A stretch of 64,000 nucleotides of DNA from Labilibaculum antarcticum (GTDB lineage: Bacteria; Bacteroidota; Bacteroidia; Bacteroidales; Marinifilaceae): the NCBI RefSeq assembly GCF_002356295.1, contig NZ_AP018042.1, positions 372,001 through 436,000 of the forward strand, given 5' to 3'. A program made the position numbers and the translations under genes. This document shows positions 8,867-13,621 of this stretch, in pieces (the first letter of the stretch is position 1; each line of letters starts with the position of its first letter). The notes below the pieces were generated by a model. The model made no database searches and was not told the DNA's origin. It saw nothing but the letters and a program-made list of their open reading frames with translations.

Positions 8867-9050
8867 CTTCTTTTTTGTTATTTTTATTTAGTCAAGATAT
8901 AAATAAGATTTCGATTTCTAAAAAAAGAAATATTAGAGATAAGTATAAATAAATTTATAGTTGCGGTTTTTCGCTGAGCAAGAAAACAATCAAGCTGAAT
9001 TTCTATTGATCTCAACATTGCTTCGTATCTTCGCTAAAAATTTGAAAAGA

Positions 9051-9138
9051 ATGAAACGTCCATGATTATTTAATCACGGTAATCCCGAAAGCTTTCGGGA
9101 CCATCTAATAACTAAATCAAAATTATAAACAGATGAAA
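9051..9138 (+). repeat. Dispersed leader repeat, copy 2, with palindrome
   Basis: Copy of the segment before batE. Between the shared blocks it contains the 18-bp perfect palindrome TCCCGAAAGCTTTCGGGA (9083-9100). It ends in an ATG at 9133 that opens a 13-codon reading frame (to 9174), either a leader peptide or a leftover. The 353-base gap 8867-9219 holds nothing else that I can identify. Confidence 0.45.
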
Positions 9139-9219
9139 CGAGCCATAAGAAAAAGTTCTCACACACGAGAATAACTATTTGGCGAGTTCCATGTGACATC
9201 TTTGAACAATTTTAGACAC

Positions 9220-11040
9220 ATGAAACAAGTTGAACTATTAGCTCCAGCCAAAAATCTGGAAACCGGAATGGCTGCAATAAATTACGGAGCTGATGCTATC
9301 TATATTGGTGCACCTAAATTTGGTGCCCGCTCTGCTGCAAGTAATACGCTCGAAGATATTGGCGAGTTAATTAAATACGCTCATAAATACTGGGCGAAAG
9401 TATTCATTACAATGAATACCATTTTATATGATAATGAATTAAAAGAAGCTGAAGAGCTGATTCATCAACTATACAAACTTGGTGCCGATGCATTAATTGT
9501 TCAGGATATGGGTATTTTAGAAATGAACCTTCCTCCTATTGAACTTCATGCCAGCACACAAACTCATAATTACGATCTGGAGCGTATCAAATTTCTGGAA
9601 CAAGTCGGATTCAAAAGAATTATTCTCGCAAGAGAACTTTCCCTTGATCAAATTAAGGAGATTAGAAAAAACACCTCGGTAGAACTTGAATATTTTATTC
9701 ATGGCGCATTATGTGTTTCATTAAGTGGCCAGTGTTATTTTTCCCATGCAATTGGTGGTCGGTCTGCGAACCGCGGAGAATGTAGTCAGGCCTGCCGCAT
9801 GAAATACGATTTGGTTGACGGAGAAGGAAAAGTAATTGCGAAAGACAAACACTTGCTTTCTTTAAAAGACTTGAATCTTTCAGGCCATATGAAAGAATTG
9901 GTCGAAAGTGGAATCTGTTCGCTAAAAATTGAAGGGCGCTTAAAAGACAGCTCCTACCTGAAAAATGTAACCAGTTATTACAGGAAGGAATTAGATGATG
10001 TGTTTGAGAAGAAAAAAGAATTCAGAAAAGCATCATCAGGAACAGTAAAACCAAACTTTGAACCGGATTTAGAGAAAACTTTTAACCGAGGGTTTACCAA
10101 CTACTTTTTTTCAGGCCGAATTCCTGAAATCGCAAATTTCCATACGCCAAAATCATTAGGAAAAGAAATTGGCAAGATTGTAGCTGTTCGAAATGATCAT
10201 TTTATAATTGACACCAAATTTGAAATTCACAACGGCGATGGTCTTTGCTTTTTTAATCGCAACAAGCTGCTAAAAGGTATTCAGGTAAACGGTGTAAAAG
10301 GCAAACTGATTTTCCCAAATGAAATGAATATGTTGGTTGCAGGCGCTGTTTTGTATCGCAATAACGATCATGAATTTGCAAAAACACTTAAAAAAGATAA
10401 CTCAACCCGTAGAATTTCAACAGAACTACTTTTAGAATTTAAGGAAAACATCCTCACCTTAATTGCTACTGATGAAGATGGGATAAGTGCTTCTGTTCAG
10501 CTTAAGGAAGAATTTGAATTGGCTCGCAATACCGAAATGGCAATTACAAATTTTAAAACCCAGTTGTCGAAATCAGGAGATTCTATCTACTCGATCCATA
10601 CCATTGAAACCAATTTTACCGAGGCTCCCTTTGTTCAGGCTAAAGTACTTAATGAGTTGCGCCGAAAGGTTCTTGATTCTCTAACCGAAAATAGAGTTGC
10701 CGCCTTTCAGCAACCCAAAACACAGGCTTTAATCTCGCATCCTAAATACCACACAAAAAACCTAAATTACATGGGCAATGTGGTCAACTGTAAGGCCGAA
10801 GATTTTTATCACAAGTGTGGTGTTGAAAAAATTGAAAAAGGTTTTGAGCTGCAATCCGATTATAAAGGGAAAACACTAATGACTACCAAGCATTGTTTAC
10901 GTCATGAATTTGGTATGTGTAACAAAGAGTTTAGTACAGATAAAAAAGCAAATCAACCTTTATATTTGGTCGATAATAAAAATCGTTACAAACTAGAATT
11001 TCATTGCCAACGTTGCGAAATGAAAATCATTTTTGAATAG
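9220..11040 (+). CDS. Peptidase U32 family RNA-hydroxylation protein, first paralogue
   Basis: U32 proteins were named as peptidases; in E. coli the members TrhP and RlhA take part in hydroxylation of tRNA U34 and 23S rRNA C2501. The start MKQVELLAPAKN at 9220 matches the family; a GTG at 9193 would add nine unlike residues. Visible: the TIM-barrel N-terminus, HASTQTHNY, and the cysteine cluster around residues 165-190 (CVSLSGQCYFSH, then GECSQACR) that binds an Fe-S cluster in this family. The SLKIEGRLKD motif follows. The C-terminus carries more cysteines (CLRHEFGMC, CQRCEMK). At 606 aa it is near RlhA in length. A second, longer paralogue lies at 26988-29252. Which RNA it acts on is not determined. 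Confidence 0.85.
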   Translation: MKQVELLAPAKNLETGMAAINYGADAIYIGAPKFGARSAASNTLEDIGELIKYAHKYWAKVFITMNTILYDNELKEAEELIHQLYKLGADALIVQDMGILEMNLPPIELHASTQTHNYDLERIKFLEQVGFKRIILARELSLDQIKEIRKNTSVELEYFIHGALCVSLSGQCYFSHAIGGRSANRGECSQACRMKYDLVDGEGKVIAKDKHLLSLKDLNLSGHMKELVESGICSLKIEGRLKDSSYLKNVTSYYRKELDDVFEKKKEFRKASSGTVKPNFEPDLEKTFNRGFTNYFFSGRIPEIANFHTPKSLGKEIGKIVAVRNDHFIIDTKFEIHNGDGLCFFNRNKLLKGIQVNGVKGKLIFPNEMNMLVAGAVLYRNNDHEFAKTLKKDNSTRRISTELLLEFKENILTLIATDEDGISASVQLKEEFELARNTEMAITNFKTQLSKSGDSIYSIHTIETNFTEAPFVQAKVLNELRRKVLDSLTENRVAAFQQPKTQALISHPKYHTKNLNYMGNVVNCKAEDFYHKCGVEKIEKGFELQSDYKGKTLMTTKHCLRHEFGMCNKEFSTDKKANQPLYLVDNKNRYKLEFHCQRCEMKIIFE

Positions 11041-11079
11041 AATTAACTCAGGTTCGAACCCTATTTAAGGATTTTAGCT

Positions 11080-11736
11080 ATGGTTCACTATATAGAAAAA
11101 CTAATTCGTGAAGGAGAGCATCAGCAACAGGATTTTAAATTCTGTATTACTGATTCCCGAAAAATTGCCAAGTCACTATCTGCTTTTGCCAATACAGATG
11201 GTGGCAAATTGCTTATTGGCGTGAAGGACAACGGAAAAATTACCGGAGCAAAAGTCGAAGAAGAATTCCATATGATAAAAGCGGCAGCTGAAATTTACTG
11301 TCGTCCCAAAATTCCTTTCGAGAGTAAGGTATGGCAGCTTAACGGAAAAAATGTCTTGGAAATAACAATTCATCGTTCTAGGAAAATGCCTCATTATGCA
11401 GAAAACAAAAAAGGCAAATGGTTGGCTTACCTTCGCAAAGATGATGAAAACCTCTTGGCTAATAAAATACTTCTTGAAGTTTGGAAAAGAAAGTCAAAAC
11501 CAACCGGCACTTATTTGGAATACACCGAAACAGAGACTGTACTAATGAATTATCTGAATGACAAAGAAGAAATTAGTATGAATCAATTTTGTAGAATTGC
11601 ACGAATTAGTCGCAACAAAGCGGAAAGAATATTGGTAAAGTTAATTTGCTGGAATGTGATTGAATTAGATATTTCGGAAACTGGCACCAAATATCACATA
11701 AAACAGAAAGAAAATTCAAAAATTAGATACACCTGA
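11080..11736 (+). CDS. AlbA_2 (Schlafen-type) domain protein with C-terminal winged helix
   Basis: 218 aa. The N-terminal half is an AlbA_2/AAA_4 domain: EGEHQQQDFKF, then FANTDGGKLLIGVKDNGKITG and a C-terminal ITIHRSRKMPHY. Such domains occur in Schlafen-like nucleic-acid proteins and in bacterial regulators. The rest (about residues 150-210) looks like a winged helix-turn-helix. It follows the U32 gene by 39 bases and may be cotranscribed with it. The last 75 bases belong to the 735-bp tandem duplication; a decayed second copy of this 3' end lies at 12398-12471. The exact function is unknown. Confidence 0.8.
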   Translation: MVHYIEKLIREGEHQQQDFKFCITDSRKIAKSLSAFANTDGGKLLIGVKDNGKITGAKVEEEFHMIKAAAEIYCRPKIPFESKVWQLNGKNVLEITIHRSRKMPHYAENKKGKWLAYLRKDDENLLANKILLEVWKRKSKPTGTYLEYTETETVLMNYLNDKEEISMNQFCRIARISRNKAERILVKLICWNVIELDISETGTKYHIKQKENSKIRYT

Positions 11737-11814
11737 ACGAGCATCATCCGAAAGACCTTAAAACGAAGCAGTTAACACTTGCATCTATCTAAGTAGATGC
11801 TAAAAAAAAGGCAT

Positions 11815-12004
11815 AAAAAAACCGCACTAATTAATTGGATTTTAAACTCCTAAATGACAGGATTTGAGTGCCAGCCTGATCAAGTTTCCCCTGTGCCGAA
11901 ACAACCCGAAGGTTGGGGCCTGCTTTAACAAGCTTGTAGCTTTCTCGGTATACTATGAATGTTGAGTTTAACAATCGATAATTAATGCGGTATGCTATTA
12001 TATT
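11815..12004 (-). ncRNA. Structured RNA, copy A (6S-like candidate)
   Basis: Read on the minus strand, an RNA of about 190 nt. Its ends pair: ACCGCA and TAATTA near the 5' end (from 11991 down) match TAATTA and TGCGGT near the 3' end, with one mismatch between blocks. A run of seven T (11815-11821) follows directly, as in a terminator. The middle holds CAACC-TTCG-GGTTG, a stem with a stable cUUCGg tetraloop (on the plus strand it would be CGAA, so the minus strand is favoured), and the small hairpin GCTTGTTAAAGC. A weak promoter-like TTCTTTG lies at 12010-12016. Long rod, closed ends and size recall 6S RNA, but I cannot confirm the family. 5' end approximate. Confidence 0.65.
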
Positions 12005-12166
12005 TTATGCAAAGAACGTTCTACTTATTACTTGCAAGCTAAGGAAGAATCTCTATTTTTGCAAGGCTTACGATGTATTTTTCATTCTAAATTAAACAAA
12101 TACACTCCTATCCTATCCCAAATCACAAGAAATTAAATCGTTATACAGTCAATATTTATTCTTTGA

Positions 12167-12397
12167 AAGGAAAATTTGTGTCAATCAGCAATATTTGCAT
12201 TTCTTCCAAAAAAACTGAATTTGTCTGTGCTACCTAATATCATCATACATACTCATCACTAGAATGATTACTCGAATGTATGTTTTGTCCTTTCAATTAA
12301 TCCGGGAGAACAAATAACAAATGGGGTAACTGTGTTTATTCTATTGGGATCCATCCATGGAATAGTAATTCGACTGATTTAGCTTCGGACATTCAGA
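12167..12397 (+). pseudogene. Truncated copy of the tatD 5' end
   Basis: This is the first-unit counterpart of 12902-13132. It is dead: the ATG equivalent of 12902 is AGG, an in-frame TAG replaces the codon after the HTHH metal motif, the -7 promoter box of the intact gene (TACTTTTG) reads CATTTCTT, and the sequence breaks off at the duplication joint. Confidence 0.85.
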
Positions 12398-12471
12398 AAT
12401 TAGATATTCCGGAAACAGGAACCAAATATCACATAAAACAGAAAAAAAATTCAAAAATTGGAGACACCCGA
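12398..12471 (+). pseudogene. Decayed copy of the AlbA_2 gene 3' end
   Basis: Second-unit copy of 11663-11736, covering only the last 25 or so codons (LDI-ETGTKYHIKQK region recognisable). Its stop codon has changed from TGA to CGA. No start or promoter belongs to it. Confidence 0.8.
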
Positions 12472-12550
12472 ATAAGTAGCATCCAAAAACCCTGAAAACG
12501 AACCAGTTACCACTTATATTTACCAAAATAAATGGTAAAAAAAAAGACAC

Positions 12551-12740
12551 AAAAAAACCGCACTAATTAATTGGATTTTAAACTCCTAAATGACAGGATT
12601 TGAGTGCCAGCCTGATCAAGTTTCCCCTGTGCCGAAACAACCCGAAGGTTGGGGCCTGCTTTAACAAGCTTTAAGCTTTCTCGGTATCTTAAAAATGTTG
12701 AGTTTAACAATCGATAATTAATGCGGTATGCTATTATCTT
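12551..12740 (-). ncRNA. Structured RNA, copy B (6S-like candidate)
   Basis: Second copy of the RNA at 11815-12004. The 114 bases 12558-12671 equal 11822-11935 with no difference that I can see, while the flanking copies differ at many places. The T7 tail (12551-12557), UUCG hairpin and closing stem are all kept. A cluster of changes near 12672-12690 (TAAGC for GTAGC, then CTTAAAAAT for ACTATGAAT) lies on the 5' side of the RNA. Such uneven divergence suggests that both copies are under selection, or that gene conversion keeps them alike. Function and family unconfirmed. Confidence 0.65.
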
Positions 12741-12908
12741 TTATGCAAAGAACATTCTCTTATTACTTGCAAGCTAAGGAAGAATCTCTGCTTTTGCAAG
12801 GCTTACCATGTGTTTTTCATTCTAAATTACACAAAACGCTCTTATTACACCTCAAAACACAAGCAATTAAATCATTATAAAATCGATATATATTCTTTGA
12901 AATGAAAA

Positions 12909-12939
12909 TTTGTGTCAATCAGCAATATTTGTACTTTTG
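12909..12939 (+). promoter_or_regulatory. Bacteroidota-type promoter of tatD
   Basis: TTTG (12909-12912), a 19-base spacer and TACTTTTG (12932-12939) match the Bacteroidota primary sigma consensus. Transcription would begin near 12946, so the ATG at 12902 could not be used. The dead first-unit copy has lost the -7 box. Confidence 0.7.
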
Positions 12940-12961
12940 CCACAAAATACTGAATTTGCCT

Positions 12962-13621
12962 GTGCTACCTTATATCAACATACATACTCATCACTTGAAT
13001 GATTACTCGAATGTTTGTATTGTCCTTTCAATTAATCCGGGAGAACAAATAACAAATCGGGAAGCTGTGTTCTATTCTGTGGGGATCCATCCATGGGATA
13101 GCAATTTGACTGATGTACCTTCGGCCATTCATGAATTGGAAATTTCAGCTTCTGATTCCAATGTTATAGCCATAGGCGAAACTGGACTTGATCGAATGAT
13201 AGAAACTCCGCTTTCTATTCAGGAAGATGTTTTTCAAAAACAATTGCAGATAGCTGAGAAATATAATAAGCCGGTAATCATTCATTGCGTAAAATGCTTT
13301 TCAGAATTAATTAGCATCCGCAAAAAAAAATCCATCAAACTTCCTTGGATTGTTCACGACTTCAGAAAAAATATTCAAATTGCAGAAGATTTAATTGCAT
13401 TAGGATGCTATCTCTCATTTGGAAAGGCATTACTTACGGATGAGAAGTTACAAACTGTTTTCCGAAGCCTTCCAATGAATAAACTATTTTTGGAAACTGA
13501 TGATAGTGATATAAAAATTGAAGAGTTATATAAAAAGGCAAGCCTAGTAAAAGGCCTTAATTTAGAGGATCTAAAAGAAGAACTATTTTCAAATTTCACA
13601 ACTTGTTTTAATAGAATATGA
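12962..13621 (+). CDS. TatD family metal-dependent hydrolase
   Basis: TIM-barrel metallohydrolase of the TatD DNase family, 219 aa from GTG 12962, somewhat shorter than the usual 255-265. Metal ligands are visible: HTHH at the N-terminus, the Glu of IAIGETGLDR, the His of VIIHCV, the His of WIVHDF, and the Asp of LFLETDD. SVGIHPWD is also typical. The start is uncertain: ATG 12902 lies upstream of and inside the likely promoter, TTG 12956 is possible, and GTG 12962 places PYINIHTHH right at the N-terminus as in relatives. The stop overlaps the next gene in ATGA. TatD proteins are 3'-exonucleases or D-aminoacyl-tRNA deacylase-like enzymes; the substrate here is not known. Confidence 0.85.
   Translation: MLPYINIHTHHLNDYSNVCIVLSINPGEQITNREAVFYSVGIHPWDSNLTDVPSAIHELEISASDSNVIAIGETGLDRMIETPLSIQEDVFQKQLQIAEKYNKPVIIHCVKCFSELISIRKKKSIKLPWIVHDFRKNIQIAEDLIALGCYLSFGKALLTDEKLQTVFRSLPMNKLFLETDDSDIKIEELYKKASLVKGLNLEDLKEELFSNFTTCFNRI

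Follow-up and report, generated by a model that had tools for sequence, protein, structure and literature searches.

Two nearly identical segments lie close together on the minus strand of a 64,000-nt stretch of the Labilibaculum antarcticum genome (contig NZ_AP018042.1, positions 372,001 to 436,000; hereafter the window), and they raise the question of which RNA they encode and why this genome carries it twice. The original prediction, made from the letters of the window, described two minus-strand copies of an unassigned RNA and guessed at a 6S-type regulator of RNA polymerase. Our analysis placed the copies at 11814-11992 (copy 1) and 12550-12728 (copy 2), on the strand and in the region proposed; they are 97% identical and 557 nt apart. 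When the whole window was analyzed with cmscan, Bacteroidales-1 (RF01693) was the only family above threshold, and it matched both copies at full length with 85.0 bits for copy 1 and 87.5 bits for copy 2 (cut-off 60). The RNA is not unassigned, since this Rfam family covers both copies above its gathering score; Rfam describes it with the words "6S-Bacteroidales RNA suggested". The model R1 gave 217.8 bits for copy 1 and 215.2 bits for copy 2, both copies being already in the alignment behind this model. One match to the drum RNA family (E 8.8) was set aside as chance.

The original prediction had also named covariance models of three families as a check, of which Bacteroidales-1 matched, 6S-Flavo stayed below its cut-off and the general 6S model gave nothing. 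At a relaxed threshold, 6S-Flavo (RF01685) was found at both copies with 49.5 and 50.5 bits (E 1-2e-6), short of the cut-off of 85. This match spans the whole model and includes the common ACUCAAC ... GGAGUUU ends, although the apical tip has 22 bases in the copies and 4 in the model. The general 6S model (RF00013) had zero matches across the window's genome, while a control search with it found matches in 5 of 14 genomes, 4 of them above cut-off. The copies agree with canonical 6S RNA in their plan of a rod with closing stem, central bubble and apical arm, as that plan is outlined in PMC8876501, but not in any covariance match. Compared with other members of RF01693, they belong to the same order and match the full-length model above the gathering score, yet their 85-88 bits are below the order's best of 189 bits.

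Each copy is predicted to fold into a rod, in which a 13-bp closing stem beside the T tail is followed by a second stem of 12 bp that terminates in AAACUC/GAGUUU. Beyond this stem come an open central bubble, with nt 30-46 forming its 5' side, and an apical arm with interruptions, which bears the UUCG hairpin. The pairing ends and the seven-T tail proposed earlier are both present, and the tail adjoins the closing stem in both copies. The hairpin, which had been called stable, exists as AACC-UUCG-GGUU, but it competes with another hairpin and has a pairing probability of 0.48-0.64. Folding energies were -49.6 kcal/mol for copy 1 (z -4.1; equalled by 0 of 200 shuffles) and -48.8 kcal/mol for copy 2 (z -3.4; equalled by 1 of 200). 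A simple terminator scan found no hairpin terminator; a closing stem that encloses the entire RNA is outside what such a scan seeks. The T tail after the closing stem and the lack of any listed minus-strand ORF of at least 80 aa at 8867-11814, downstream of copy 1, indicate a free-standing small RNA gene and not the leader of a downstream gene.

The closing stem, central bubble and apical arm of this 6S-like rod are kept by covariation among relatives. Across 22 distinct sequences, 97.8% of 1049 cells were paired, a count that favours copy 1 because the structure was taken from it, and 7 of the 48 pairs were altered on both sides. In 500 shuffles, none equalled the observed values for paired cells, changed pairs, changed cells or covariation score; the measure of further pair types showed no excess, being equalled in 434 of 500. 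When the 3' strand was shifted by one column, pairing fell to 48-49%. All 48 model pairs are intact in both copies, and the six differences between the copies fall at unpaired positions. The underlying alignment A2 holds 23 sequences (22 distinct, L017 being identical to L038) from Labilibaculum, Marinifilum, Ancylomarina and kin, namely both copies, 16 loci from the RF01693 search of relatives and 5 from a further set of 22 loci. It omits L013 (by eye the same RNA as L012), L003-L006, which belong to different families of the order, the remaining 17 loci of the further set (many of them contigs already covered), the loci of the order-wide search and eight distant loci of the host's family, L024-L031. 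These eight are included in the 31-row alignment A1, on which RNAalifold recovered 29 pairs at -10.04 kcal/mol and missed most of the apical arm, probably due to poor alignment of the distant rows.

With this rod and its central bubble, the RF01693 match and the sub-cut-off 6S-Flavo match, the guess of a 6S-type regulator is supported, and the pair can be regarded as members of a known family, the suggested 6S RNA of Bacteroidales. A survey of 2010 (PMC2864571) lists both Bacteroidales-1 and 6S-flavo. In Bacteroides thetaiotaomicron, dRNA-seq detected the Bacteroides 6S RNA together with pRNAs of two classes (PMC7366714); the text of that report gives no Rfam accession, and the tie of this RNA to RF01693 comes from the Rfam description. 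PMC9723704 further reports the detection of a 6S RNA in Flavobacterium psychrophilum. That the RNA is instead another conserved small RNA and no polymerase regulator would agree with the silence of RF00013 and with polymerase binding being a prediction here, but the two family matches, the bubble-bearing rod and the published detection of 6S RNA with pRNAs in Bacteroides make this very improbable.

The presence of two copies can be traced to a tandem duplication of about 735 bp that runs from the last ~75 bp of an AlbA_2 gene through the first ~240 bp of a tatD gene. With approximate borders, the left unit (11663-12397) comprises the AlbA_2 end, RNA copy 1 and the tatD start, and the right unit (12398-13144) an AlbA_2 remnant, RNA copy 2 and the 5' part of the intact tatD. 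The pair is flanked by an intact plus-strand AlbA_2 (Schlafen-type) gene (11080-11736; PF04326, E 1.4e-20) and an intact plus-strand gene for a TatD-type nuclease (12902-13621; PF01026, E 4.3e-37). Between the RNAs lies a decayed 5' remnant of tatD (12167-12408, plus strand), recovered as tblastn pieces, which has lost its start codon and has stops in all three frames. A 3'-end remnant of AlbA_2 (12379-12468, plus strand), with 63% identity to residues 189-218 of the intact protein, overlaps the junction. The junction itself falls in a short stretch where the AlbA_2 end (GAATTAGATATTTC) resembles tatD (GAATTGGAAATTTC), and recombination at such a chance similarity would fit it. The gene order U32 peptidase, AlbA_2, RNA, TatD and ThiF is repeated in Labilibaculum and Marinifilum loci. 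At loci L007-L022, the tatD beside the RNA has about 43-64% identity, compared with about 72-90% for ThiF, and the tatD of locus L011 matches in two pieces.

A tatD remnant without ATG and with stops in three frames argues for a true, aged duplication and not for two adjacent alleles. An assembly error that joined alleles of two strains is hardly credible: mixed assemblies may exist, as a related public genome (G028) carries conserved regions of another genus's type, but the genome containing the window is one contig of 5.72 Mb, with completeness of 100% and contamination of 0.89%, and decay of the tatD piece between the RNAs would not be expected of a living allele from another strain. Genome G028 itself has Ancylomarina-type 6S, RNase P, tmRNA and rpsL-region sequence (L021, 1490-1770; L090, L096 and L104). 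The foreign-type 6S and RNase P are set in own-genus sequence and the tmRNA and rpsL lie next to it, with a contamination estimate of 5%. Exchange of the 6S gene between genera was considered for this genome and rejected, since the RNase P, tmRNA and rpsL regions are foreign in type as well. A foreign type common to four regions is not special to 6S. Rather than four separate replacements, an assembly that was mixed or wrongly polished is the likelier cause, although true recombination may have occurred. The row from this genome (L021) was kept in A1, A2 and model R1.

We then asked how the copy number compares among relatives. Model R1 matched 50 of the 56 genomes of the host's family, including all 42 of good quality (the window's genome is counted in both), with a single match in each of the other 49 matching genomes and two in the window's genome only. 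With RF01693, matches were obtained in 37 of 59 relatives and, across the order, in 106 of 393 genomes, again counting the window's genome in both, and only this genome had two. Filtering was strict in these searches, and few candidates were scored in each genome (6 in the order-wide search), so a very divergent second copy could be missed in these counts. Porphyromonas gingivalis strains have one Bacteroidales-1 copy each, as reported in PMC5771137. Run on the window's own genome at E up to 1, model R1 found only the two known copies, and viral contigs had 0 matches to one exact pattern taken from the conserved 3' half. The full-text literature, a scope that most subscription papers fall outside, yielded no report of a Bacteroidota genome with two 6S genes. 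The tandem pair in place of the one copy in other matching genomes is the unusual feature of the locus, a private duplication in an otherwise ordinary family. Elsewhere in the same genome, beyond the window, the tmRNA model gave a series of weak matches at even spacing (3123984-3124799), perhaps a tandem tRNA array.

Both copies carry a putative promoter element, GTTCTTTG, 17 nt upstream of the start of the RNA model (minus strand; 12010-12017 for copy 1 and 12746-12753 for copy 2), near the place that the TAnnTTTG (-7) box occupies in homologs elsewhere in the order. Among 34 loci of other families of the order (L003-L006, L054-L083), 29 have TTG-N19-21-TAnnTTTG, which PMC7366714 describes as the phylum's primary promoter. 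It ends 14-32 nt upstream of the RF01693 start, and in these families the RNA thus seems to be a gene with a promoter of its own. The Rfam model of RF01693 may lack the true 5' end, and the transcripts of the window probably start somewhat upstream of it, from the element that takes the position of the -7 box. Canonical TAnnTTTG is absent from the window copies and their close kin, which have GTTCTTTG (8 of 18 close loci) or GTTCTTTA or GTTCTTTT (9 loci) instead; the element is missing in L023. A sigma-70 promoter scan found 8 promoters against a shuffle mean of 5.8 (sd 2.6), no clear excess.

In copy 1, GTTCTTTG overlaps an intact palindrome, AGAACGTTCT (12013-12022), the core of which, GAACGTTC, occurs upstream of the RNA in 17 of the 18 close loci. 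The counterpart in copy 2 (12749-12758) is altered by one base, and the upstream region of copy 1 has one extra base relative to that of copy 2. A role of AGAACGTTCT as a genome-wide operator was rejected, with 3 sites in the genome and 4 for the reversed control. The more distant loci of the family (L024-L031) have GTTCTTTG in 8 of 8 cases and do not keep the rest of the palindrome; together with the lack of site excess, this makes part of a promoter likelier than an operator. Because a GTTCTTTG element sits upstream of each, the two copies are most likely separate transcription units.

The duplication also allowed us to compare the RNA with flanks of the same age. The copies differ at 6 of 178 positions (nt 36, 37, 40, 41, 56 and 57), one further mismatch being the final base, past the T tail. 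The longest unbroken identity, 121 bases (11815-11935 and 12551-12671), slightly extends the 114 identical core bases first noticed. The contrast between a conserved core and diverged surroundings also proved correct, as the flanks of the two units differ at 9-25% of positions: 7 of 74 at the AlbA_2 end, 19 of 77 in the 3'-side spacer, 21 of 172 in the upstream region and 27 of 242 at the tatD start. Divergence of the RNA is about 3- to 7-fold below that of these flanks (Fisher p = 0.004 against 17 of 138 in the 140 nt upstream, p = 0.003 against the tatD remnant and p = 8e-7 against the 3'-side spacer). The single copies of eight other genomes of the genus, when compared with copy 1, differ at 4-15 of 178 RNA positions and 21-43 of 138-140 upstream positions (4/178 and 21/138 in L011, 6/178 and 24/139 in L012, 9/178 and 21/139 in L007). 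As single-copy relatives have the same contrast, both copies in the window have evolved about as slowly as single copies.

Judged by the majority of rows of the genus, the new changes are nt 36, 40 and 41 in copy 1 and nt 37, 56 and 57 in copy 2; nt 40 and 41 of copy 1 are as in L008, another Labilibaculum. Four of the six sites (36, 37, 56 and 57) are invariant across the 21 other rows of A2. Copy 1 has one private change at otherwise invariant sites and copy 2 three; of the 21 other rows, the sole ones with any are L014 with 1 and the divergent L023 with 11, and none occur in eight rows of similar isolation, separated from their nearest row by 4-10 differences. Such private changes point to a slight release from constraint, or to the onset of divergence, after duplication, and they fit relaxed constraint as well as shared function. 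It is possible, though doubtful, that one copy is redundant and heading for loss, and that the low divergence reflects youth plus chance, with only one copy that matters. The single copies of all 49 other matching genomes of the family would accord with this, as would the three private changes and the changed palindrome of copy 2, while the 3- to 7-fold lower divergence of the RNA and the retention in both copies of every pair, the T tail and the GTTCTTTG element speak against it.

With the family match, the fold, the conservation, the duplication and the gene remnants demonstrated, we consider it highly probable that the window holds two complete Bacteroidales 6S RNA genes that arose by one ~735-bp tandem duplication in a lineage within Labilibaculum and that would act on RNA polymerase. 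Most likely both copies do the same job, raising the dosage or simply not yet lost. Each would have a promoter of its own that drives transcription on the minus strand, and each transcript would end at its own closing stem and T tail. By analogy, the rod would bind primary-sigma RNA polymerase by mimicking an open promoter, and the RNA-bound polymerase would be held back in stationary phase, as happens with other 6S RNAs. Synthesis of a short pRNA by the polymerase, with the bubble's 5' side as template, would then bring about release. For E. coli and B. subtilis, PMC8876501 describes a 6S rod that mimics an open promoter, on which polymerase makes short pRNAs, and a pRNA hybrid with the 5' central bubble and adjoining stem that triggers release. 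If the same mechanism operates here, nt 36-41 would lie in or next to the pRNA template.

Four of the six differences between the copies lie among the 17 nt that form the 5' side of the bubble (p = 0.0008 in a hypergeometric test against an even spread, a lenient null since the bubble also varies across the family, at 6 of 17 sites), and the pRNAs of the two copies would probably differ in sequence. An early split of roles, with different pRNAs, release or expression conditions as in a young 6S-1/6S-2 pair, might be read from this clustering, from the private changes that comparably isolated rows lack, and from the altered palindrome of copy 2 and the extra upstream base of copy 1. The changes are few, however, the bubble is variable in the family, and nt 40 and 41 of copy 1 match L008, so we regard such a split as unlikely. 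Were it true, a single cell would produce a pair of pRNAs and a pair of polymerase brakes that differ in their release or expression. A pair of 6S genes side by side is also described for 6S-1 and 6S-2 of Bacillus, in tandem in the B. cereus group (PMC7726162); that pair has one promoter and a shared precursor, whereas the copies in the window have separate conserved upstream regions and separate T tails.

The family question that was left open by the original prediction is settled, in that the RNA is a member of the family proposed by Rfam as the 6S RNA of Bacteroidales. The duplication amounts to a natural experiment, in which near-identical copies in one cell are distinguished by six bases, of which four fall in the region expected to be the pRNA template.
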